A stretch of 64,000 bases of DNA, taken from NCBI GenBank assembly GCA_026387915.1, contig JAPLKS010000005.1, forward strand, positions 62,001 to 126,000. Direction: 5' to 3'. Below the pieces are notes generated by a model, which made no database searches, was not told the DNA's origin, and worked only from the letters and a program-made list of their open reading frames with translations. Of the stretch, positions 8,501 to 21,351 are shown in pieces (within the stretch, counting starts at the first letter, position 1; every line of letters begins with the position of its first letter). Source of the stretch: Gemmatimonadota bacterium. GTDB taxonomy: Bacteria; Gemmatimonadota; Gemmatimonadetes; Gemmatimonadales; Gemmatimonadaceae. The position numbers and the translations under genes are program-made.

Positions 8501-8650
8501 CAGCCACCCGCTGACGATGAAGAGCAGGGGGATGACGCGAGGCCGAATCGACCGGCGGCCAGCGACGATCGCAGCCGCACCGACGGCCAGCGCCAACGCT
8601 GCGAGCACGGATGGCACGGTGATCAGATCGGGTATCGAGGTTCTGTCCAC
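5513..8650 (-). CDS. CHASE-PAS-PAS hybrid sensor histidine kinase with receiver domain
   Basis: A 1045-residue membrane sensor with a GTG start. Two hydrophobic helices lie in residues 10-60, an extracytoplasmic CHASE-type ligand domain at about 95-290 and a further helix near 318-340. Two PAS domains follow (about 380-490 and 505-620). The HisKA box reads GVAHDFNN with His near 654. The ATPase domain shows the N box (NLCVNARDAI), DTGSGM and GTGLGLAS. The C-terminal receiver has VEDE and the acceptor Asp in LCDVVMP near 948. The protein ends with PAVP repeated four times, encoded by a 12-bp tandem repeat. It is convergent with the GMC gene, and the two stop codons share a CTAG. The signal is unknown; CHASE domains bind small organic ligands. 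It belongs to the same kinase type as the genes at 25992 and 61213. Confidence 0.9.
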   Translation of the reverse strand: MDRTSIPDLITVPSVLAALALAVGAAAIVAGRRSIRPRVIPLLFIVSGWLLSGALFVMGVRDQLDRDHADLNRLTAYAQASIQQRMTTYVDALRSGASFLVASRAVTRESWAVFAATLDLSTRYPGANGIGVIYPMAAKDSLTFVRRAREDGVPSFAIHSTVRGIPSADGVRYVVTFVAPEAGNGPALGLDLASERARRLAADEARDSGMAHMTDRIELVQDQRQRPGFLLYVPVYRTGAPRATVAERRAALQAWVYAPFVTEDFLHGVLAANTERLHVHLFEKDSIATPNLLFASDSATAAEAAYALVTTIDLAGQRFHLGWNRGDSYVPPPPSPLIWLALLLGLTVTGLVVWMTREQRFAQRAHALVLERTRELSESEYRWKFAIEGAGDGLWDWDMVTNTVFFSPRWKAMLGYAEDEIGNNVSEWESRLHPDDKPRAMLAVQAHAQGATPRYECEHRVRRKDGSWLWIQDQGLVVSRDSANVPLRMIGKHRDISERKDSEAKLLVSEVRYRRLMFASTDGFWLADLTGKLLEVNDAYVRMSGYSEAELLTMRVSQLEINETPEQTAAHVLAVQQHGHDRFESRHRTKDGREIEVEISLQFHDVDGGRLVCFCRDLTELNAAKAATARLAEELDQALRLESVGRLAGGVAHDFNNMLGVILGNTELALDQLDPSDPVHQDLTEIRIAAERSAQLTRQLLTFARKQSIAPTVLQLNDVVPGTLSTLRRVIREEVSLEWRPGKELWLIAMDPSQVEQMVTNLCVNARDAIAKVGSVTISTANVVVGEAWRTAHPDAVPGEYVQLTVRDTGSGMDSVTMAQIFEPFFTTKAIGEGTGLGLASVYGAVHQNRGFITVSSVVGYGTTFAIYIPRMRDPQSSAARTPLADRQGATARQKRETVLIVEDEPALLGLVTRALTSHGYTVLGAGTPHEALRLAQAHRAEIRLVLCDVVMPLMNGRELSQLIRAICPQSALLFMSGYPSDVIAHHGMLDENVHLIQKPFTLTDLAASVRAAIDGAHDGALESAVVVPPAVPPAVPPAVPPAVP
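5519..5566. repeat. Four perfect 12-bp tandem repeats
   Basis: The unit CACCGCTGGCGG occurs four times without mismatch, starting 3 bases after the GMC stop codon. It is coding for the last residues of the minus-strand hybrid kinase (PAVP units). Because the unit is a multiple of three, copy-number change would lengthen or shorten the tail without shifting frame. Confidence 0.95.
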
Positions 8651-8780
8651 CCCTTACGTCTGCCGCATCGCCACTCCGGTGAGTCCTGCCTATGAAGGAT
8701 ACCCGTGGGGACTTAGCGCGCCACTCATCTGCCACGGGCTGGGGGTTACTCCTCCGTCGGCGGCCGCAGACGACCTGCCC

Positions 8781-9794
8781 TTGTGCCATCGCGGTTGCAC
8801 TCTCAGAATCCACCATGGGCGGGGCGGCAGAAAGCCCACATGGCAATCACTGAGCCACTGGAGCGTTCGCATTTATTCTGCATGGTGTACTCGGCGCTGG
8901 TCACTAGCACTAGCACTCGCGCTCCTCAGCGCCTGCGGCGGCAACAGTTCCGCGCCGGCCTCGGGTGCGCCCGCAGCGCGCCCAGTTCTGCTCAGCACCC
9001 CCGCCGAAACCACACTCCACAACGATCGGCTCTCCCAATCCATTCGCCGCGGCCGCGCCCTCGTGCGCGACACGCGCGACTCCCTCCCCCGCAACGTCGG
9101 CAGTACGCTGCGGTGCGTGAGCTGCCATCTCGACGACGGCACCCGCGCCTACGCCATGCCATGGGTGGGCGTGTACGGACGCTTTCCGCAGTATCGCTCG
9201 CGCGCGGGGCGCGTGGCGCGGATTGAAGATCGCATCAACGATTGTATACAACGCAGTCTCAATGGCACCGCGCTCGCGAGTGATGGCGACGACATGCGCG
9301 ACATCGTGGCCTATATGTCATGGCTCTCGCGCGGCACGCTGTCGGGCCGTCGATTGCCAGGGAGCGGCATTGATTCGCTGGCGCCGCTGGCACCGGACAC
9401 CGTGCACGGCAAACTCGCATACCTGGAACAGTGCGCGCGTTGCCACGGCCCCAATGGCGAAGGGCTCAAGGGGGCGACCCCCGCGCTGAGCGGCGCACCG
9501 CTTTGGGGGCCCGCATCATTTAACATCGGCTCTGGCATGGCGCGCGTGCGGGTCTCGGCCGCATTCGTTCGGCGCAACATGCCCTTTGACTTACCGGGGA
9601 CCATCAGCCCGCAAACGGCGTTTGATATTGCCGGCTATCTCGAGGCGCGGCCGCGGCCAGATTTTTCCGGAAAGGAAAAAGACTGGCCCAACGGCGACGC
9701 GCCGGTGGATGCGGCGTATCAGACCACCGCGCGCCCCCCTACGGCACCCGCCGCCGCTCCGCCACCCGCTCCAAAAAATCGAGCTGCGCCTTGA
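8781..9794 (+). CDS. Diheme c-type cytochrome lipoprotein, TsdA-like
   Basis: A secreted diheme cytochrome. The mature part has two heme sites: CVSCH at 9114-9128 and CARCH at about 9432. The sequence around the first heme, and the region VRRNMPFDLPG with a candidate axial Met, match thiosulfate dehydrogenase (TsdA)/SoxX-type proteins. A lipobox (LLSAC) follows a hydrophobic stretch, so it is probably membrane-anchored on the outer side. The start is unresolved: I placed it at TTG 8781, but no ATG gives a good signal peptide. GTG 8679, CTG 8850 or ATT 8871 (with GGAG eight bases upstream) are alternatives. The C-terminus is Pro/Ala-rich and overlaps the end of the convergent esterase gene by 56 bp. 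Likely role: periplasmic electron transfer or thiosulfate oxidation; the substrate is not proven. Confidence 0.8.
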   Translation: MCHRGCTLRIHHGRGGRKPTWQSLSHWSVRIYSAWCTRRWSLALALALLSACGGNSSAPASGAPAARPVLLSTPAETTLHNDRLSQSIRRGRALVRDTRDSLPRNVGSTLRCVSCHLDDGTRAYAMPWVGVYGRFPQYRSRAGRVARIEDRINDCIQRSLNGTALASDGDDMRDIVAYMSWLSRGTLSGRRLPGSGIDSLAPLAPDTVHGKLAYLEQCARCHGPNGEGLKGATPALSGAPLWGPASFNIGSGMARVRVSAAFVRRNMPFDLPGTISPQTAFDIAGYLEARPRPDFSGKEKDWPNGDAPVDAAYQTTARPPTAPAAAPPPAPKNRAAP

Positions 9795-11435: not shown

Positions 11436-13505
11436 GTGCGCGTTCGGACAGCGCTCCAATCACCACCCGCTCGACCCACACAGACAGGAGCCCCCCTGCC
11501 CTTTCCCCGCCTGTCACGCGCCTGCTATGTGGCTCTATTCAGCTGTGTTGTGGTCGCCTGCGGTGGAGGCGGCGGCTCCAATAGTAGCGGCTCCACCGGC
11601 GTCACCACGCCCGTGGACAACTCCGTCGGCCGCGTTGACGTTGCGCCAACAGCTCCCATCACACTGCAATCCGGCGCCACCGCCACCCTCAGCGCCTCCG
11701 CGTTTACGCGTGACGGTCGCTCGGTCAGCTCCGCGTCATTCAGCTGGGTTTCGTCCAATGACGCCGTCGCCAGCGTCAACGGTGGCGTGATCACCGCAAA
11801 ACTCGTCGGCACGGCAAGCATCACGGCCACCAGCGGGAGCGTGTCGTCCTCCGCCGTCACCGTCACCGTGACGCCGGGAGCGGCGGCGCAGTTGGGGGTG
11901 CGCACGCAGCCCAGTGGTGCTGCCTCCGCCGTCGCTCTCACAGTGCAGCCTGTAATTGAAGTGCGGGACGCCGCGGGCAATCTCGTTTCAACCGCCAGCA
12001 CGGCTGTGACCGTCGCAGTCGCGAGCGGCGGCGGTACACTCGCGGGAACCGTCACGGCAACCACCGTGGCAGGGGTCGCGAGCTATACCGACCTCGTCAT
12101 CACCGGACTCGTCGGTGCACGCACCCTGCAGTTCAGTGCTGCAGGGCTGAGCACCGCCACGTCGAACAGCTTTACGCTCACCGCCGGCGCGGCATCCAAA
12201 CTCAGCATCCGCACCCAACCGGTGGCCGGCACGGCCTACGCGGTGTTCCCCACTCCGCCCGTTCTGGAAATTCAAGACGCCGCCGGAAATCTGACTGCCT
12301 CAACTGCCACGGTCACCGCCACCATCGCCTCCGGCGGCGGCACACTCTCCGGCGCGAGCGTCAACTCTGCGAGCGGCGTTTCCACCTTTAGCGCACTCAC
12401 CGTACTCGGCACCGCAGGCGCGCGCACCCTCACCTTCTCGAGCGCTGGGCTGCCCGCCGTCACCAGCGTGAGCTTCAACGTCGCTGTCGCACCGCCCGCC
12501 ATTATCAAACTGTCCAGCGACATCTCGGCGCTCTCCGCATCACTCGGTTCCAATCCCGCCGTCGCCACGGTGAGCGTCACCAACACGGGAGTCTTTCCGC
12601 TTACCAACCTCCGGGTGCAAAGCGTCACGTATACGCCCGCGTCTCCCGCCGGTTGGCTTGCGACGTCGTTCGCCACGGGCACCGACGCGCCGGCCTCGCT
12701 GCGCCTCACCGTCACCGCCGCGTCGCTCACCATCGGCAGCTATTCCGCTGCCGTCGTGCTCGCGGGCGATGGTGCCACCGCCACCAAAACGCTGACCGTG
12801 AATCTCACCGTCACGCCGCTCGTGGTGAACAGCTTTGGAACATCAGCGAACCGCGTCAGCATCCTCGCGCCCGGTGCCACGTTATCGCCGGGACTGCAAA
12901 CCACGCTGAATGGCGCCGTCTCTACCCCCGATTCCACCGTTACCTACATCTCACGCAGCACCGCTATCGCCACCGTCAATTCCACGGGGCGCATCACCGC
13001 CGTCGCACCTGGCCAAGGGTGGATTGTGGCGTCCAGCACGCAGTCCAACAGCGACTCCGTTTTGGTCATCGTTCCGCGTACGTCGGGCGTCGTACTGCGC
13101 ACCGACATGACCAAGTACAACTATAGAATAGGCGATACCATCACCGTCAAAGTGATTGCCGACACGCGCGGTGCCACACTCGGCGCTGCCACGGTCACCT
13201 TCACCTGGCCAGTGTACATCGGCTCCGCTGGAACATTCGGATCGCTGGTATTTATTGACGCGGTCGCCGGCGCGAGTCCAATGAGCCCGCTGATCAGCAC
13301 GGACAACACGCTCAACGTCATCCGCATCAATGCCAACTCCACTGCCGGCGCCACGGGCGTAGTGGAACTCGCGACCATCCGTTTTCGCATAATCAAATCC
13401 GGGCTGAACACCTTCTACGTTAACGGCGTGGAACTGCTCGGCATCGATCTCAGCGATCTGCTCACGACGGCGTCCCTCACCCAGTATCCGGTGCTCGTGC
13501 CATGA
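11436..13505 (+). CDS. Large Ig-like-repeat lipoprotein with C-terminal cohesin-like domain
   Basis: Up to 689 residues. The coordinates use GTG 11436; an in-frame CTG at 11496 sits five bases after AGGAG and would give a textbook lipoprotein signal peptide ending VVVAC, so it may be the real start. After a Gly/Ser linker come a BIG2-like domain (VASVNGGVITAKLVGTASI) and two related beta-sandwich repeats that share SIRTQP or GVRTQP and GARTLxFSxAGL. These are followed by an unclassified sandwich and a second BIG2-like unit. The last 140 residues, starting at GVVLRTDMTKYN, resemble a cohesin: a long beta-domain ending in TGVVELATIRFRI. It is the first gene of a four-gene coupled operon whose last member carries a dockerin. 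It is probably a cell-surface scaffold or anchor. Confidence 0.75.
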   Translation: MRVRTALQSPPARPTQTGAPLPFPRLSRACYVALFSCVVVACGGGGGSNSSGSTGVTTPVDNSVGRVDVAPTAPITLQSGATATLSASAFTRDGRSVSSASFSWVSSNDAVASVNGGVITAKLVGTASITATSGSVSSSAVTVTVTPGAAAQLGVRTQPSGAASAVALTVQPVIEVRDAAGNLVSTASTAVTVAVASGGGTLAGTVTATTVAGVASYTDLVITGLVGARTLQFSAAGLSTATSNSFTLTAGAASKLSIRTQPVAGTAYAVFPTPPVLEIQDAAGNLTASTATVTATIASGGGTLSGASVNSASGVSTFSALTVLGTAGARTLTFSSAGLPAVTSVSFNVAVAPPAIIKLSSDISALSASLGSNPAVATVSVTNTGVFPLTNLRVQSVTYTPASPAGWLATSFATGTDAPASLRLTVTAASLTIGSYSAAVVLAGDGATATKTLTVNLTVTPLVVNSFGTSANRVSILAPGATLSPGLQTTLNGAVSTPDSTVTYISRSTAIATVNSTGRITAVAPGQGWIVASSTQSNSDSVLVIVPRTSGVVLRTDMTKYNYRIGDTITVKVIADTRGATLGAATVTFTWPVYIGSAGTFGSLVFIDAVAGASPMSPLISTDNTLNVIRINANSTAGATGVVELATIRFRIIKSGLNTFYVNGVELLGIDLSDLLTTASLTQYPVLVP

Positions 13506-14008
13506 CCCTCTCGATCGCTCTCCGGCGGGGGCTCACTCCCCTGTTCGTCGCCGCGCTCGCCACGCTCAGCGCATGCCACAGCTCGGCCGATCTCGTCACA
13601 CACGCCAGCGCGCTCGCGCCACGCGCGCTCACGCCGCGCGTGCTCGTGGCGCAAACGGGCAACTCCGCCGTCATCACGCTCTCACTCGACGCGCGTGGCG
13701 ACGTGGGCACCCTCGGCAGCTTCACGGGGCGATTCACCTACGATCCCGCAGTGCTCACCTTTGTAGAAGAAGTGCCACTCAGCGACGGCACGCTCCGCGC
13801 GAGCAACCCTGCACTCGGCTCCATCCGTTTTGCAGGAGCGGCGCGCGCCGGCGTCAACATCGCGCAGCTGGCTTCGTATCGCTTCACTGTGCTCAACGCC
13901 AATAAACTCGCCGAGCTTCGATTTGAGCTTGACGAAGTGCACGATATTGGCCGCGCGAATCTTGCCACGTACGTGCGCCACGGTGACGGCACCACGGTGT
14001 TCAAGTGA
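13502..14008 (+). CDS. Small lipoprotein with cohesin-like domain
   Basis: 168 residues. Its ATG overlaps the upstream stop as ATGA. The signal peptide ends in a lipobox (ATLSAC), so it is probably membrane-anchored. The mature part is one beta-domain resembling a cohesin: a leading AVITLSLDARGDVGTLGSFTGRF strand region (13660-13730), the typical TYDPAVLTFVEE strand, an internal GSIRFAG turn, and a closing segment ASYRFTVLNANKLAELRFEL (13870-13930). Cohesins bind dockerins, and the fourth gene of this operon has one. The assignment rests on pattern, not on a search, and related carbohydrate-binding or Ig-like folds remain possible. Confidence 0.7.
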   Translation: MTLSIALRRGLTPLFVAALATLSACHSSADLVTHASALAPRALTPRVLVAQTGNSAVITLSLDARGDVGTLGSFTGRFTYDPAVLTFVEEVPLSDGTLRASNPALGSIRFAGAARAGVNIAQLASYRFTVLNANKLAELRFELDEVHDIGRANLATYVRHGDGTTVFK

Positions 14009-14415
14009 GACGCGCACTCGTGTTCGCACTGGTGCTCGTCGTACCAGCCTGCGCCTCGGCGCGCGCATCAGTTTCGTCCATGGCCGCGCGCCCGCGCCTC
14101 ACCGCGCTCGCGCCGAGTGAGGTGCAGTTGTCCGCTGCCTCGAATGCGGAAATCGAGTTGCGTGGGAGCAACTTCAGCATGCGCACCGACGCACCGGCCA
14201 ACACCGTGCGCATTGGTGCTCTCGAACTACGCTCCGTTCCGAGCAGCGCGAACGGCACCGTGATTCGCGTCACCCTGCCGGAAACGGTACCGACCGGTGG
14301 CGAAGCTCCGCCGGTACGCTGGATGTCGGGACGCTACGCCGTGACCGTCACAACGGCCGCTGGAATCTCCGACACCCTCATACTGACCATCGCTGCCGGC
14401 CCGAGGAATCCATGA
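14005..14415 (+). CDS. IPT/TIG-like small lipoprotein
   Basis: 136 residues, starting with GTG in a GTGA overlap with the preceding stop. A short signal peptide ends in VVPAC, a lipobox. The mature domain reads like a single IPT/TIG immunoglobulin-like fold: LTALAPSEVQLSAASNAEIELRGSNF opening (14095-14172), then AANTVRIGALEL-type middle strands and a YAVTVTTAAGISDTLILTI closing edge. Such domains mediate contacts between surface proteins. It is placed between the cohesin-like lipoprotein and the dockerin protein and is coupled to both, so it probably belongs to the same surface assembly. Function otherwise unknown. Confidence 0.7.
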   Translation: MRRALVFALVLVVPACASARASVSSMAARPRLTALAPSEVQLSAASNAEIELRGSNFSMRTDAPANTVRIGALELRSVPSSANGTVIRVTLPETVPTGGEAPPVRWMSGRYAVTVTTAAGISDTLILTIAAGPRNP

Positions 14416-16931
14416 GCCATTCTTCAGAGCGCCCAGTGCTGAGCGCGGCCATGCAGGCGAGCGTTCGAGTGACGACCGCACTCTTCGTACTCGTGACTGC
14501 CGCCACGCTGCACGCACAGCGCGCAACAGAACACGAGGGCTCCGACTTTCAGCGGCAGCGCCAAGCGTGGTACGAGTCGCAGCGTGCGTGGCCAGCCGCG
14601 GAGGTGAACTGGGAGGCGATTCTCGCCGCCAAGCTCCGCGTCACCTCACGCTCCACCGGATTCAGCGCGCTCTCCAATGCGCTCAGCGGCAGCTGGGTTC
14701 CACTGGGCCCCAATGGCTTTTTCGGCGTCGGCTACTGGGACTCGGGCCCGCAACTCGACGCCGGCCGAGTGGATGTGGTGGCGTTGCATCCCACGGTGGC
14801 GGGGACGATGCTCATTGCCTCGCCCGCCGGCGGCATTTGGGGTTCAACATCGAATGGCATGAGTTGGACGGCGCGCACCGACAATCAGTGCACGCTTCAG
14901 ATGAGCACGCTCACGTACGATCCGGTGAACCCGAATCTCGTGTATGCTGGCGCGGCGTACTCGAGCGGCGCGGTGGGCTGCGCCATTCTGCGTTCCGTGG
15001 ACGGGGGCAGCACGTGGAGCAACCACAACGGCAACTTGAATTTCACTGCGTATAACGGTGGGTTCATCAACGCGTTGTATGTGGACGCGGGCTCGGCTGG
15101 CACCACCAATGCCACGACGATGATGTTCTCATTTAGCCAAAGCGGTATTTATCGGTCCACCAACAGCGGCAGCACGTGGTCTCATCCGCTCGCGTTCGGC
15201 TACGTCACATCGATTATCGGACTCGCCGCGCAGCCCGGCGTCGTGTTTGCTGGCGTGTCGGACCGCGCGACCACTACATCCACGCGCAGCGGGCTCTACC
15301 GCTCGGCGGACAATGGACTCACGTGGACGCAGGTTTCCACCACCATCGATTTTTCGTCCACCGGCCGTTTTCAACTGGCGGTGTCGGCGGCCGATCCCAA
15401 CGCGGTGTTTGTGATTGCGGCGAGCAAGAGCTCTACGTTCCAGTCGGTCAGCCGGTATGACGACGCCAGCGGAGCGTTCGCCACGGTGAGTGCCAGCGGT
15501 CTCGATCTCTCCGCCAACGGCCGAACGCACTTTGGAACGCAGGGCACCTACGATCTCGACATTAAGGTGGATCCGCTCGACGCCAAGCGAATCTATATCG
15601 CTGGCGTGCGCGCGTTCCGGAGCACGGACGGCGGCGTGACCTTTGCTCCGATGGCCACGGAAATTCACTGCGACTGGCACGCGATTGTGATTGATCCGCG
15701 CAACCCGCGGCAACTCTGGGCCGGCACCGATGGCGGCATCTACACCTCGAACGACGGCGGCGACAGCTGGACGAGCCGGAGCTCCGGGCTCGCCATCTCC
15801 ATGTACTACCCCGGCATCTCGCTGCACCCCACCGACCCCTACGTGGTGCTCGGCGGCCTGCAAGACAACGGCACGCTGCTCGCCAACGGCACCACGATCT
15901 TCAACTCCATTATGGGTGGCGATGGCGGCTTTGCGGCCATTCATCCCACGTCGCCGACCACGCTCTGGACCACGTGTCAGTGGAGCAGCGGGCCATGTAT
16001 CCAGAAGCGTGTGCCCTCTGGCACCGGCTATTTGTATCCAAATGTTGAGGCGGGAATTTCTACGTCCGACCGTGCGCAGTTTATTCCGCCGCTGGTCATG
16101 GATCCGGTAAATCCCTCCAAGTTGTACTTCGGCACGATGCGTCTGTATCAGACGGTGAATGCCGGCACGGTGTGGACGGCGCTGACCCCAGATCTCAGCA
16201 AGGGCACCGGCAGCATCAAGACGATCGCCGTGGCGCCCTCTGACACGCTCACGCTGTACGTGGGTACGAGCGACGGCAATGTGCAGTACTCGCACGACGG
16301 TGGCCGCACCTTTGCGTTGGCCACGGGGCTACCCAACCGCGCGGTCACTCGGGTGGCCATTGATCGCACGAACGCGCAGCGCGCTTTGGCGACGTTCAGC
16401 GGTAGCGGTGCGGCCCACGTGTATCTCACCGTCGACGGCGGCGTGACCTGGACGAACATCAGCGGGAATCTGGTGGATATGCCGGTGAACGCCGGCGTGA
16501 TTCTCGACGATGGTCCGCTGCACTTTTTTATTGGCGCCGACGTTGGCGTCTTTGAAACCACCGACGGCGGCCTGACGTGGAGCAACACGCCCTCGGGGCT
16601 CCCCAACGTGCAGGTGAACGATATTGTATACAACCCCACCACGCGTCGGATAGTGGTGGCCACCTTTGGTCGCGGCCTTTTCACTTACAATTTGGCTACC
16701 GCCACCGCCGTGCTACGCGGCGATGTCAATCGCGATGGTGTGGTGAACGCGTTTGATGCGTTGCTGATTCAGCAGGCGGTGTTGGGGATTTCGCTCCCGT
16801 CGCCATACACATCGCTGCCGCATGGCGACACCAACTGCAATAACACACTCGAAGCAGCGGATGTGTTGATTGCGCTGCGCGCGGCCGTTGGGCTCACCAC
16901 GGCGGGGAGTTGTGCGGGGACTATTCGCTAG
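14412..16931 (+). CDS. Exported Asp-box (BNR) beta-propeller protein with C-terminal dockerin
   Basis: 839 residues; the ATG overlaps the upstream stop as ATGA. A signal peptide ends near residue 36 (LHAQ). The body contains at least eight Asp-box motifs of the S-x-D-x-G-x-T-W type (for example SVDGGSTW, STNSGSTW, SADNGLTW, SNDGGDSW, TVDGGVTW, TTDGGLTW). These are typical of sortilin/VPS10 and sialidase-like propellers; they mark the fold, not a catalytic site. The last 70 residues are a type I dockerin: two calcium-loop segments, DVNRDGVVNAFD and DTNCNNTLEAAD, each followed by a helix. In cellulosomes a dockerin plugs into a cohesin, and cohesin-like domains are encoded just upstream in the same operon. 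The gene's TAG shares a CTAG with the convergent maturase gene. Confidence 0.85.
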   Translation: MSHSSERPVLSAAMQASVRVTTALFVLVTAATLHAQRATEHEGSDFQRQRQAWYESQRAWPAAEVNWEAILAAKLRVTSRSTGFSALSNALSGSWVPLGPNGFFGVGYWDSGPQLDAGRVDVVALHPTVAGTMLIASPAGGIWGSTSNGMSWTARTDNQCTLQMSTLTYDPVNPNLVYAGAAYSSGAVGCAILRSVDGGSTWSNHNGNLNFTAYNGGFINALYVDAGSAGTTNATTMMFSFSQSGIYRSTNSGSTWSHPLAFGYVTSIIGLAAQPGVVFAGVSDRATTTSTRSGLYRSADNGLTWTQVSTTIDFSSTGRFQLAVSAADPNAVFVIAASKSSTFQSVSRYDDASGAFATVSASGLDLSANGRTHFGTQGTYDLDIKVDPLDAKRIYIAGVRAFRSTDGGVTFAPMATEIHCDWHAIVIDPRNPRQLWAGTDGGIYTSNDGGDSWTSRSSGLAISMYYPGISLHPTDPYVVLGGLQDNGTLLANGTTIFNSIMGGDGGFAAIHPTSPTTLWTTCQWSSGPCIQKRVPSGTGYLYPNVEAGISTSDRAQFIPPLVMDPVNPSKLYFGTMRLYQTVNAGTVWTALTPDLSKGTGSIKTIAVAPSDTLTLYVGTSDGNVQYSHDGGRTFALATGLPNRAVTRVAIDRTNAQRALATFSGSGAAHVYLTVDGGVTWTNISGNLVDMPVNAGVILDDGPLHFFIGADVGVFETTDGGLTWSNTPSGLPNVQVNDIVYNPTTRRIVVATFGRGLFTYNLATATAVLRGDVNRDGVVNAFDALLIQQAVLGISLPSPYTSLPHGDTNCNNTLEAADVLIALRAAVGLTTAGSCAGTIR

Positions 16932-18094
16932 GCGTTGGCGGCATCCCCAGTCGCTTGCGTTCCGGGGTCTGGCGTTGCCTTCCACTCCGCCACCAACCGC
17001 CTGAACGTTCCATCAGCATGCGTAAAGAACCGCTTGAATGACTCACAAAAGTAACTGACCCCCGCGCCAGCCCCCGCACCCACTCGGTCCTTGGGGCACC
17101 CGCCCTGACAATAGCTCCGCCACTGGCAACTCAAGCAGGGCGCCGGCTGATGCTTCTTCTTGAGCCCAAAAGCCTGCTGCGCCTCGCTGTTCAGCATCGC
17201 CGACAGCGATCCGTCGAGCACACTCCCCAAGCGATGCTCCGGATTCACATAGAAGTCACAGCTGAACAGCTCCCCCGTGTGCTCCACCACGAGATAGGTG
17301 CCGCACTCCTCGAGCAGCGTGCAATCGCGTGGCGCCAATCCCGCATACGCGTACAGCAACGACTCAAAAAAGCGCACCGACGTCGTCGGCTTGCCCTCCA
17401 CAAAGTCGGCTATCCATAAATCGAAGATCGCGCAGAGAAACTCACCGTACGCATCCGCCGGCACCGAGTGCGCCGCTATCCCATTGGGCGCGTTCGCATC
17501 GCGGTCGCAGCAGGGTATGAACTGCATGTACGCGAGGCCAGCATCCTTTAAGTAAGTGTAGATCTCCTCAGGATGCTGCACCGAATAATCGGTGACCACC
17601 GACAGCGAGTTCACCGACACCCCCGCGTCGAGCAACAGCTGCGCGCGGTCACTCACCGTCTGCCAAGTGCCCTTCCCGCCGAGGTTCACCCGGTACCGGT
17701 TGTGCACATGCTCGGGACCGTCGAGTGAGAGCCCCACCAAAAAGTGGTACTTCGCCAAAAATGTAGCCCACGACGGATCGAGCTTGATGCCATTGGTCTG
17801 CAGCGCATTGCTCACCCGCTGCCCGCGACCAAACTGCATCTCGTACGCCACCGCCTGCTCAAAGAACGGCAGCCCCATCAACGTGGGCTCCCCACCCTGC
17901 CAGCTGAACGACACCGACTCCTCTGGCTGCGCGAGCAGCTGCCGCACCGTCGCCGCGAGCACCGCGTCCGACATCCGGTGCACCGGCGTCTCCGGAAACA
18001 GCTGCGACGTGCCGAGATAAAAGCAGTACCGGCACCCGATGTTGCAATCGGGGCCCGCGGGCTTGATCAGCACATTCGTGAGTGGCTTCGTCAT
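16928..18094 (-). CDS. Anaerobic sulfatase-maturating radical SAM enzyme
   Basis: A 388-residue radical SAM protein. The cluster motif CNIGCRYC (Cys 17, 21, 24) binds the SAM iron-sulfur cluster, and WQGGEPTL is the family GGE segment. The C-terminal SPASM region has the expected extra cysteines: CTLLEEC, SCDFYV (whose Asp is the likely catalytic base) and CLSCQWRSYCQGGCPKD. It should oxidise the active-site Cys of the neighbouring sulfatase to formylglycine in the cytoplasm before export. It lies 52 bp downstream of that sulfatase on the same strand, but an intrinsic terminator occupies the gap, so its expression probably depends on readthrough or its own promoter. No strong Shine-Dalgarno sequence is visible. 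Confidence 0.9.
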   Translation of the reverse strand: MTKPLTNVLIKPAGPDCNIGCRYCFYLGTSQLFPETPVHRMSDAVLAATVRQLLAQPEESVSFSWQGGEPTLMGLPFFEQAVAYEMQFGRGQRVSNALQTNGIKLDPSWATFLAKYHFLVGLSLDGPEHVHNRYRVNLGGKGTWQTVSDRAQLLLDAGVSVNSLSVVTDYSVQHPEEIYTYLKDAGLAYMQFIPCCDRDANAPNGIAAHSVPADAYGEFLCAIFDLWIADFVEGKPTTSVRFFESLLYAYAGLAPRDCTLLEECGTYLVVEHTGELFSCDFYVNPEHRLGSVLDGSLSAMLNSEAQQAFGLKKKHQPAPCLSCQWRSYCQGGCPKDRVGAGAGAGVSYFCESFKRFFTHADGTFRRLVAEWKATPDPGTQATGDAANA

Positions 18095-18098
18095 GGTC

Positions 18099-18136
18099 TA
18101 AAAAACAACGGCGTGGAATCACGCTCCACGCCGTTG
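18099..18136 (-). terminator. Intrinsic terminator between sulfatase and maturase
   Basis: There is a perfect 12-bp stem, CAACGGCGTGGA with TCCACGCCGTTG, and a 7-base loop. Read on the minus strand the stem is followed by a run of six T residues, the classic rho-independent layout. It lies only 4 bases before the start codon of the maturase gene. Confidence 0.85.
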
Positions 18137-18146
18137 CCTCCCGTTG

Positions 18147-19664
18147 TCATGAAGTCGTGGCGAGCCCGAACAGATTGCGCTTCAAACTGTCCTCCCACCG
18201 CGCCATCGTGGCATGGTAATCGCGCACCTTGTCGGGATACCGCCCCGCGAGATTGTAGGCTTCGCCAGGGTCGGTCTTCAGATTAAACAAGAGCGGAAGT
18301 GGACCGGTGGTCTGCCGCGCCAACCATCCGAGCTTCTGGTTCACCGGCATCGGCCACACATAGTGATTGACTTTCCGAATGAACTTCCAGTCGCCCGCCC
18401 GCATGCCCTCGAGCGTTCCCTGATGATAAAAATACAACTCGCGCGGCGCCGCAGGCTCGGCGGGATGCTTCATCTGATTCACCAATGACACACCGTCAAT
18501 CGTGCGGTCCGACGGCGTGTGAATTCCCGCCAGCGAGAGTAGCGTCGGAAATACATCAATATTCATCGCCAGCGTGTCGCACACCTGGCCACGCGGAATT
18601 ACGCCGTCCCAGCGCATGATCATCGGCACACGATGCCCACCTTCAAAACTCTGTCCCTTCCGTCCGCGGAATCCGGCGGGGCTCCCGTCATACCACGGGC
18701 CGTTGTCGCTCGTAAAAAGAATGATCGTGTTCTTGTCCTGCCCACTCTTCTTGAGCGTCTCCATCAAGCGACCAAAGTTCCAGTCAATCTCCTGAATAGA
18801 GTCGCCATAGAGTCCGCCGTCTGACGTATCCTTGAACTGCGCCGACGCCGCAAGCGGACGGTGCGGATACGTGTGCGCCAAATACAAGAAGAACGGCGTG
18901 TCCTTGCTGCTCTCCACAATCTTCACCGCCTCATCCGTGTAGAGGCGCGTCAACTTGGTACGGTCGGTGATATCGGCTTCAATCGTCTCGCGGTCTCGGT
19001 ACAACGGAAACGGGCTCATGTCATTGCTGTGCGGCACGCCATAGAAACTCTGGAAGCCATGCTCCAGCGGATGAAAGCGCGGCGCCGTTTTGAAATCGCC
19101 GAGGTGCCACTTGCCGATCATGGCCGTGCGATAGCCACGCCGCTGCAGCGCTTCGCCAATCGTCACCTCAAAGGCATCGAGCCCTTCAGCGCCGACCTCT
19201 GAATCCATGTCCATGAGACCGACGGCGCCGGTCACAAAGCCGAGTTGATTCAGCAGCTTGATCTTGAGACTCGTCGTACTCGGCATCAGCGGAAAATCGA
19301 GCCGCATCCGCTTGGGGTAACGTCCCGTGAGCAGTCCCGCGCGCGACGGTGTGCACACCGAGTCGCAGGCGTGAAAGTCGGTGAAGCGCACGCCCTGCGC
19401 CGCCATCGCATCGATGTTTGGCGTCTTCACTGCCCCGCTGCCGTAGCAGCCGAGATCGCCGTAGCCGAGGTCGTCGCAGTTGACGAGAATCACATTGGGC
19501 GGCCGCCCCGTGAAGGCAGGGTCGAGCCCGACGATGTCCCCAATCGCGCGCTTCGCCGGAAAGGGCACCGGCTTCTCTTTCATGAAATAGCAGCTGCCTG
19601 CCGCGAGGCCTACGCCGCCAACCGCGACGCCGCCAAGGAAGTTTCTGCGAGAGATGGGGGACAT
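18147..19664 (-). CDS. Tat-exported Cys-type S1 sulfatase
   Basis: A 505-residue sulfatase. ATG 19664 begins a twin-arginine signal (SRRNFLGG); the frame is open upstream but those residues do not look like a leader. Family marks are VNCDDLGYGDLGCYG (metal-binding acidic residues), the signature CTPSRAGLLTGR with Cys 104 as the formylglycine precursor, GKWHLG, and FTSDNGPWYD. This is an alkaline-phosphatase-fold type I sulfatase needing Ca2+ and formylglycine, probably acting on sulfated organics or glycans in the periplasm. The maturase directly downstream is its natural partner. An intrinsic terminator follows its stop. The FGGY kinase upstream is 124 bp away and may be a separate unit. Confidence 0.92.
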   Translation of the reverse strand: MSPISRRNFLGGVAVGGVGLAAGSCYFMKEKPVPFPAKRAIGDIVGLDPAFTGRPPNVILVNCDDLGYGDLGCYGSGAVKTPNIDAMAAQGVRFTDFHACDSVCTPSRAGLLTGRYPKRMRLDFPLMPSTTSLKIKLLNQLGFVTGAVGLMDMDSEVGAEGLDAFEVTIGEALQRRGYRTAMIGKWHLGDFKTAPRFHPLEHGFQSFYGVPHSNDMSPFPLYRDRETIEADITDRTKLTRLYTDEAVKIVESSKDTPFFLYLAHTYPHRPLAASAQFKDTSDGGLYGDSIQEIDWNFGRLMETLKKSGQDKNTIILFTSDNGPWYDGSPAGFRGRKGQSFEGGHRVPMIMRWDGVIPRGQVCDTLAMNIDVFPTLLSLAGIHTPSDRTIDGVSLVNQMKHPAEPAAPRELYFYHQGTLEGMRAGDWKFIRKVNHYVWPMPVNQKLGWLARQTTGPLPLLFNLKTDPGEAYNLAGRYPDKVRDYHATMARWEDSLKRNLFGLATTS

Positions 19665-19788
19665 GACTGATTGGTAAAGGTTCAATCCAACGTGATAAAG
19701 TATGGAGCCGCGGGGAACCGCCCGCCACAGTACGACGTGAGATCCAACAAGCTGAGATTCCCCAAGCCCACCGAGCATCACAAAACGT

Positions 19789-21351
19789 CTACGACTCGGG
19801 ATACCCCGTAATCGCCTGAATCTCGTGGTACATCGGGAGTAACTGCTTATACATCGTGAGATACACCTTGCGGTACAACTGCTCGTAAATCGCCTGGTTT
19901 TTCGGAATCGGCATAAAGAGCTCGCGCACACGGGTCATCGCGCCGACCGCCGTATTGAAGTCGGGATACAATTTCATCCCCACCGCGGCAATAATGGCCG
20001 CGCCGAGCACCGAGGTCTCACTTGTGTGCGGCCGCCGCACGGGGAGCCCAAAGACGTCGGCCGTGATTTGCATAATTGCGTCGCTCTTGGAGCCGCCACC
20101 GGTGGCACGAATCTCCGTGATCGCCACACGGTTCTTCTTCTGCGTCAGCTCCGCGCCTTCCTTGAGCGCGTACGCGAGCCCTTCGATAATTGAGCGATAC
20201 AGATGCGCGCGCGTGTGCACATCGCCAAAGCCTATCACTGCACCCTTGGCGTTCGCGCTATGCTCCGGCCCTGGCGTCCAGTGCGGCTGACACATCAACC
20301 CCATGCTACCGGCCGGTACGGCTTGCAGCAGTTTCTCCATCAGCTCTTCGGGTGCCACATCCTGCTCGCGTGCCTGAAGCCGCTCCTGCAACCCAAACTC
20401 TTCCTTGAACCACGACACCATCCACAGGCCACGCACCACGCCAACCTCGGAATAGAACTGGCCGGGAATCGCCGATGGATATGGCGGCAGTAGCGGGCGC
20501 AGCTCTACGTATTTCTCGTTTTGCGTATTGATCGTGGCCGTCGTCCCAAAGCTGATGCACCCTTGATCTGGCGTCATACAGCCCGCGCCAAGAATGTCGC
20601 ACGCCTTGTCATTGGAGGCGGCTATCAAGGGCAACCCCACCGGAATGCCACTGGCCGCGGCCGCCGCCTCGTGAACTGCACCCAGCGACTCGCTGGGCTG
20701 CACTAACTCGGGCAGCTTCTCCACTTCCACAGGGAAGAGCTTCCACTTGAGGTCCCACCGCCCCGCCCAACCGCCGCGGCGCACATCAAATGGTACGGCC
20801 CCAATGACGCTCCCCACCGAATCACGAAACTCCCCCGTGAGCCGATGGGTGAGATAGCCGGAAAGAAAGAGAAACTTGTGTGTCTGCTTCCACAGCTCGG
20901 GCTCGTTCTGCCGCAGCCAGTTGGACCGCGAATAGCGCGCCGCAAACTCCACAAACCGATGCAGCCCCGCCGCCTTCAACAGCGGCACCAGCACCGGCGG
21001 AATCACCTTGCTCGCGTCCGCCTTGCGCGTATCGAGCCAGACTATTGCTGGTCGCAGCGGCTTTCCCTCGCGGTCCACACTAATCAGCGTCATGCGTTGC
21101 GTGGTGAGCGTCACCGCCACCACCCGCTCACGGACGCTCTGCTCCGCCAACACCTCGTGGCACACCGCACACAACGTGCTCCAATACAGTTCGGGATCCT
21201 GCTCCGCCCACCCCGGCTTCGCGGAGAAGTAGGGCTCAATCGCCTGCTTCACCAAGCGATGCACGCCGCCCTGCAAATCCACCAGCGCCGCGCGCACCGA
21301 CTGCGTGCCCACGTCAATCGAGAGAATCAGCTTGCCCGTGGCGTCTTTCAT
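19789..21351 (-). CDS. FGGY-family carbohydrate (polyol) kinase
   Basis: A 520-residue sugar/polyol kinase. ATG 21351 is preferred over GTG 21375 because it follows GAGGGG and starts the normal N-terminus. The phosphate-1 motif is SIDVGTQSVRAALVD; CISFGTTATI is the phosphate-2 region; ATGGGSKSDAIMQITADVFG with the HTSETSVLGAAI end is the family C-terminal signature. It phosphorylates a sugar or polyol with ATP. Its place downstream of a GlpD-like dehydrogenase and a DHAP-synthase-like flavoprotein suggests glycerol or a related polyol, but it is not a clear glycerol kinase by sequence, and xylulose-type substrates are possible. It is the third metabolic gene of the GntR-led operon, 42 bp after the flavoprotein gene. 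Confidence 0.85.
   Translation of the reverse strand: MKDATGKLILSIDVGTQSVRAALVDLQGGVHRLVKQAIEPYFSAKPGWAEQDPELYWSTLCAVCHEVLAEQSVRERVVAVTLTTQRMTLISVDREGKPLRPAIVWLDTRKADASKVIPPVLVPLLKAAGLHRFVEFAARYSRSNWLRQNEPELWKQTHKFLFLSGYLTHRLTGEFRDSVGSVIGAVPFDVRRGGWAGRWDLKWKLFPVEVEKLPELVQPSESLGAVHEAAAAASGIPVGLPLIAASNDKACDILGAGCMTPDQGCISFGTTATINTQNEKYVELRPLLPPYPSAIPGQFYSEVGVVRGLWMVSWFKEEFGLQERLQAREQDVAPEELMEKLLQAVPAGSMGLMCQPHWTPGPEHSANAKGAVIGFGDVHTRAHLYRSIIEGLAYALKEGAELTQKKNRVAITEIRATGGGSKSDAIMQITADVFGLPVRRPHTSETSVLGAAIIAAVGMKLYPDFNTAVGAMTRVRELFMPIPKNQAIYEQLYRKVYLTMYKQLLPMYHEIQAITGYPES

Follow-up and report, generated by a model that had tools for sequence, protein, structure and literature searches.

Outside cellulosomes, cohesins and dockerins have long been recorded in scattered form, and in many cases neither a partner nor a job is known for them. 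The clostridial cellulosome employs the same two interacting folds as the Gemmatimonadota operon considered here, but none of its multi-cohesin scaffoldin, CBM, SLH anchor, or active glycanase is recognizable in the latter. Non-cellulosomal modules (Peer et al., 2009, cited in PMC9012536 and PMC6461901), including those represented by 2xdh and 2jh2, likewise place cohesin and dockerin outside cellulose degradation; unlike these modules, the present case is a conserved overlapping operon that joins a lipoprotein cohesin pair, itself found phylum-wide, to one dockerin partner. A "planctosome," i.e., a predicted non-cellulosic, envelope-tethered cohesin-dockerin complex, has been proposed for freshwater Planctomycetes; like some Gemmatimonadota loci, it includes peptidases as cargo, several of them in its case, and it has a large lamin-tail anchor plus an adaptor that carries both modules (PMC6461901), whereas the operon described here combines two lipoproteins with a TIG-like subunit and a single propeller. 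ANME archaea and their sulfate-reducing partners also possess non-cellulosomal cohesin-dockerin proteins, proposed to be adhesins in the bacterial partners; these include scaffoldin-like multi-cohesin and solute-binding proteins, and a constant lipoprotein pair is not reported in the available portions of the sources (PMC9012536; PMC10553843). No literature joining cohesin, dockerin, and Gemmatimonadota was found (matches under older group names appeared incidental), nor was any description of a comparable overlapping cohesin-pair/dockerin operon. The modules are already known; what is new here is the constant cohesin pair and the architecture of the operon.

The operon lies within a window of 64,000 nucleotides, the whole stretch of DNA that was analyzed, and quite probably encodes a self-contained, non-cellulosomal cohesin-dockerin complex in which a secreted propeller would be held on two lipoprotein cohesins. 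Its four genes, termed p1 to p4, have the following features.

11436..13505, + strand: p1, 689-aa lipoprotein with Ig-like stalk and predicted C-terminal cohesin (ORF, Pfam, profile)
11550..11561, + strand: lipobox VVAC of p1 (Cys42; translation)
11631..11855, + strand: Big_2 Ig-like domain of p1 (Pfam PF02368, E 8e-8)
13095..13502, + strand: predicted cohesin domain of p1, C-terminal class (profile; AlphaFold2 pLDDT 83; Foldseek/VIA cohesins, Z up to 14.6)
13502..13505, + strand: ATGA overlap of p1 and p2 (sequence)
13502..14008, + strand: p2, 168-aa predicted cohesin lipoprotein, lipobox LSAC, Cys25 at 13574-13576 (translation)
13577..14005, + strand: predicted cohesin domain of p2, autonomous class (AlphaFold2 pLDDT 88; cohesins, Z up to 13.1; profile)
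14005..14008, + strand: GTGA overlap of p2 and p3 (sequence)
14005..14415, + strand: p3, 136-aa lipoprotein, lipobox VPAC, Cys16 at 14050-14052 (translation; family conserved in 28 loci)
14089-14388, + strand: putative IPT/TIG-like domain of p3 (pattern and conservation)
14412..14415, + strand: ATGA overlap of p3 and p4 (sequence)
14412..16931, + strand: p4, 839-aa secreted protein, Asp-box/sortilin-type propeller and C-terminal dockerin (PF15902, BNR repeats, PF00404)
16719..16865, + strand: dockerin type I of p4 with two Ca2+ loops (D771-x-N-x-D...D782; D806-x-N...D817; PF00404, conservation)
16836..16913, + strand: cysteine pair C809 (16836-16838) and C834 (16911-16913) of p4 (conservation)

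The initial annotation had described four genes coupled through ATGA, GTGA, and ATGA, three of them encoding lipoproteins and the fourth an Asp-box propeller ending in a dockerin, and each of these elements is borne out. Adjacent ORFs, all on the forward strand, share 4 nt at every junction, and the lipoboxes of p1 (VVAC), p2 (LSAC), and p3 (VPAC, with Cys16 present) can be read directly from the translation. Each of these three proteins combines a signal peptide with a lipobox cysteine, as is expected of a bacterial lipoprotein, and lipoboxes are also present, by pattern match, in most relatives of p1, p2, and p3. The p4 protein instead carries a type-I signal peptide (A35/Q36 conserved within the family), and its propeller and dockerin exceed the Pfam cut-offs (PF15902, 85.5 bits vs. 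33; PF02012, a BNR repeat match, 38 vs. 27; PF00404 on residues 770-818, 29.9 vs. 22.9). No family name was assigned to p1, p2, or p3 by an NCBIfam search, and p3 had no Pfam match above cut-off; by pattern and conservation, it appears IPT/TIG-like. A scan for promoters and terminators at the operon returned signals at about the level of shuffles. The annotated p1 start, GTG 11436, is probably over-extended: CTG 11496 is the more likely start, as AGGAG (11486-11490) precedes this in-frame codon by 5 nt (p1 5' region, 11486-11498) and a normal lipoprotein signal results.

The cohesin assignments, which the initial annotation had based on pattern, were invisible to Pfam: no cohesin match was obtained for p1 or p2 at curated cut-offs, the trimmed p2 domain scored 12.7 bits against the PF00963 cut-off of 24.1, and a PF00963 search of the organism's own genome returned nothing at E<=1e-3. 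These calls therefore needed testing with the family's own profile. With p2 as the query, 7 of the 18 genomes of the genus yielded relatives, some of which were domains ending p1-like proteins, and profiles for p2 and p3 were grown among ORFs upstream of p4 in the family loci. The C-terminal domain of p1 and the whole of p2 belong to one family (hhalign probability 97.4, E 1e-11), and a 61-member cohesin profile, when compared with all solved structures, matched only cohesins at E<0.01; the best-scoring were 2xdh, at a modest E of 4e-4, the NagJ cohesins, and scaffoldins. Nineteen of the 61 members matched Pfam Cohesin at E<=1 (best E 2e-7). AlphaFold2 models of p2 (pLDDT 88, pTM 0.81) and of the p1 C-terminal domain (pLDDT 83, pTM 0.77) had top PDB matches in Foldseek that were nearly all cohesins, and VIA-align gave Z values against solved cohesins of up to 13.1 and 14.6, respectively, with 2xdh (Archaeoglobus) and 2jh2 (Clostridium perfringens) among the nearest structural neighbors of both domains. 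Integrin legs, CBM2, and CLIPPER also appeared among the Foldseek/VIA neighbors and were dropped as alternative identities because they ranked below cohesins. Profile and models alike thus back the original calls, and the unrelated fold that could have overturned them did not appear; both domains are, by predicted fold, cohesins. Their Ca2+-dependent binding of the dockerin is predicted from genomic coupling.

Genomically, the set is closed. Exactly two domains in the organism's own genome, which is 3.58 Mb in size and 100% complete, match the cohesin profile, both of them in the operon, and PF00404 finds one match at E<=1e-3, namely p4, in keeping with the earlier suggestion of a self-contained system. 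Relaxing PF00404 to E<=10 yields an extra match on contig 7 (19.4 bits) and a third match below the cut-off. The contig 7 match (L149:1561-2565, - strand) consists of a single dockerin-like Ca2+ loop (DVDQDGRVTYLD) within an unrelated protein that looks like a peptidase, and was rejected as a second dockerin.

Within Gemmatimonadaceae, a search with p4 identified 33 of 148 genomes at E<=1e-60, of which 30 reached E<=1e-140, the threshold adopted for orthologues, and the loci of the latter were fetched for comparison; a contig search with p4 alone had yielded only three loci, its patterns being too specific. The named records closest to the operon are Gemmatimonadetes and Gemmatimonadaceae metagenome-assembled genomes. 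The order p1-p2-p3-p4, which the initial annotation had proposed to look for in relatives, recurs in about 29 family loci at p4 identities of 35-94%, and the arrangement is therefore more than chance. Gene junctions overlap in 79 of 86 cases (65 by 4 nt and 14 by 1 nt); choosing the nearest start codon biases junctions toward overlap, although gapless junctions in such number are still telling. Variants include loci with p3 ahead of p1 (two), with a cohesin-TIG fusion (three), or with p3 unrecognized (three); both loci of genome G058 are without a recognized p3 (one also without a recognized p2), as is L072. No flanking genes of the operon are conserved across the family loci. Convergent to p4 (16928-19931, - strand) are a maturase-like radical-SAM/SPASM protein and a sulfatase, the latter shared at the same place only by the closest relative (L053). 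On the other side of the operon, a multi-domain cytochrome c (SoxA/TsdA-like plus cytochrome c; 8517-9794, + strand) is encoded upstream of a carboxylesterase.

Cohesin and dockerin also keep company well beyond the operon. In the family, the cohesin occurs in 38/148 genomes, the dockerin in 47/148, and both in 36/148 (p 3e-22), and among 395 Gemmatimonadota genomes a dockerin is present in 59 of the 66 with a cohesin (Fisher p 6e-41); these p values are overstated because related genomes were counted as independent, while the physical linkage of the genes does not depend on them. A contig end removes the dockerin in G113 and the cohesin genes in G102, and in G183 and G255 the study's own dockerin profile finds a dockerin beside the cohesin. 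In 15 further loci, mostly from other families, the dockerin lies in the same locus in 14, and the remaining one ends at a contig edge. The usual form comprises a lipoprotein with a C-terminal cohesin, an all-cohesin lipoprotein of about 175 aa, and at least one dockerin protein, which in out-of-family loci mostly bears an ordinary signal peptide and is not a lipoprotein. On a cohesin tree, the C-terminal and autonomous classes separate at 42/42 and 42/44, for which reason the two-cohesin lipoprotein pair is probably ancient. Dockerin cargo differs from locus to locus (propeller, S8 subtilase with BACON, right-handed beta-helix, RCC1/Big, or unknown). What stays constant is the pair of cohesins, while other lineages exchange the dockerin cargo, a feature unforeseen in the initial annotation.

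In the assembly favored here, p1 would be a stalk of Ig-like domains, anchored by lipid and tipped by a cohesin, that provides a first docking site on the membrane, and p2, a short lipid-anchored cohesin, would provide a second. The p4 protein, exported without a lipid anchor, would be held on p1 and/or p2 by its Ca2+-dependent, probably disulphide-stapled dockerin, and the TIG-like lipoprotein p3 would be co-produced as an accessory subunit, with the overlapping genes keeping the subunits in step. The dockerin and the main Ca2+ residues of both its loops are kept in p4 orthologues not cut by a contig end. The C809/C834 pair is conserved in these same orthologues and in the propeller-type dockerins of L141 and L145, its equivalent being absent from the other cargo dockerins of the wider set; the two cysteines probably form a disulphide that staples dockerins of the propeller type. 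The complex would reside on the outer surface. A complex that differs in place only, with the lipoproteins facing inward and a role in structuring the envelope from the periplasm, merits tentative consideration: the lipoboxes are uninformative as to membrane side, a surface-export signal was not identified, and the conserved cysteines fit an oxidizing periplasm; nevertheless, the cargo of relatives includes large subtilases and beta-helix proteins, which usually act outside, and a ligand domain carried on the end of an Ig-like stalk is an arrangement typical of surface proteins.

An improbable alternative is that the cohesin folds of p1 and p2 bind each other or other ligands, the dockerin being a stabilizing Ca2+ tail or binding elsewhere. 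With propeller divergence removed, the p1 and p2 cohesins co-vary across 25 loci (partial r 0.51, p 5e-4), whereas the dockerin co-varies with neither (partial r -0.17 and 0.00), leaving room for a p1-p2 contact; cohesin-like folds, moreover, serve other roles, one example being the adhesin domain of CLIPPER, which was itself a structural neighbor. The sample of 25 loci is nevertheless a weak test, both for this covariation, which may reflect lineage effects, and for dockerin-cohesin covariation beyond shared ancestry, which was not found. Against this alternative, cohesin and dockerin co-occur, mostly as neighbors, even where the cargo is unrelated to p4, and both Ca2+ loops of the dockerin are kept.

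The propeller itself would serve the docked complex by binding, not by catalysis. Asp-box repeats are common to p4, GH74 xyloglucanases, and sortilin/Vps10 propellers, and the p4 profile matches GH74 xyloglucanases at E 4e-28 and then sortilins. The catalytic Asp of GH74 enzymes sits in a TDIGG motif in blade 1; the corresponding position is Pro138 in p4 and is Ala, Pro, Ser, Gly, or a gap, never Asp, across 31 sequences. It is also Ala in some of the aligned solved structures, which are probably inactivated mutants. The assignment of p4 as a GH74 xyloglucanase was rejected on account of the missing Asp, and for the same reason p4 probably either acts as a propeller for binding or belongs to some other class of enzyme; unlike GH74 enzymes and sortilins, it has invariant residues of its own, H419-x-D421, Q484-D485-N486, and D504, which may mark a putative site. 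A minimal cellulosome, with p4 as a GH74-type xyloglucanase on a small scaffoldin, could draw on the GH74 match and on the dockerins borne by some clostridial GH74 enzymes, but is very hard to credit given the missing catalytic Asp, the absence from the operon of any CBM, SLH, or multi-cohesin scaffold, and the lack of a second dockerin protein in the genome. The initial view that this is not a standard cellulosome thus holds, as no CBM or SLH match occurs in the operon and p4 is without the GH74 Asp. Where a scaffoldin would be expected, p1 offers one predicted cohesin with Big_2/Ig-like domains and, in the Pfam search, no CBM, and in place of several dockerin glycanases the genome holds one dockerin protein devoid of the TDIGG Asp. 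Cohesin and dockerin modules are present with no recognizable active glycanase in the operon; the role of such a putative non-cellulosomal system would lie outside polysaccharide degradation.

Here the plug-and-socket of the cellulosome apparently serves as a small dock for cargo that has nothing to do with cellulose, because the two sockets turn up together across the phylum while the cargo that bears the plug varies. Other lineages would use this cohesin pair to hold subtilase, beta-helix, or RCC1 cargo, and such swapping would make the device a general cargo dock. A doubtful elaboration is that of an ancient, phylum-wide two-cohesin dock with interchangeable cargo, in which the two unlike faces of the propeller dockerin bridge both cohesins and the disulphide acts as a propeller-specific lock. 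As one dockerin and two cohesins share one operon, the question of partners becomes directly testable with three small proteins, and the operon may supply small orthogonal pairs for protein display. That the lipoprotein pair turns up across this little-studied phylum, accompanied by protease, beta-helix, and propeller cargo, suggests an evolutionary origin of plug-and-socket display as an envelope device of general use.

Other arrangements of the two modules were encountered in the phylum. Six genomes of a deep-branching family, f11 (G152, G154, G155, G157, G159, and G160), hold from 13 to at least 16 dockerins each with no match to the cohesin profile employed here, and are a separate dockerin-rich lineage. 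Two genomes that also have the propeller operon contain a second, multi-cohesin cluster (L105 and L106; G083:C10 and G120:C17), which includes a protein of approximately 1110-1170 aa with a weak metallopeptidase match and a C-terminal cohesin and dockerin. Lastly, the lipoprotein pair of L134:926-16380 and L135:853-15534 is followed by as many as four secreted proteins in tandem, whose N-termini carry cohesin and/or dockerin modules, and cargo with such N-terminal modules could form chains or polymerize.
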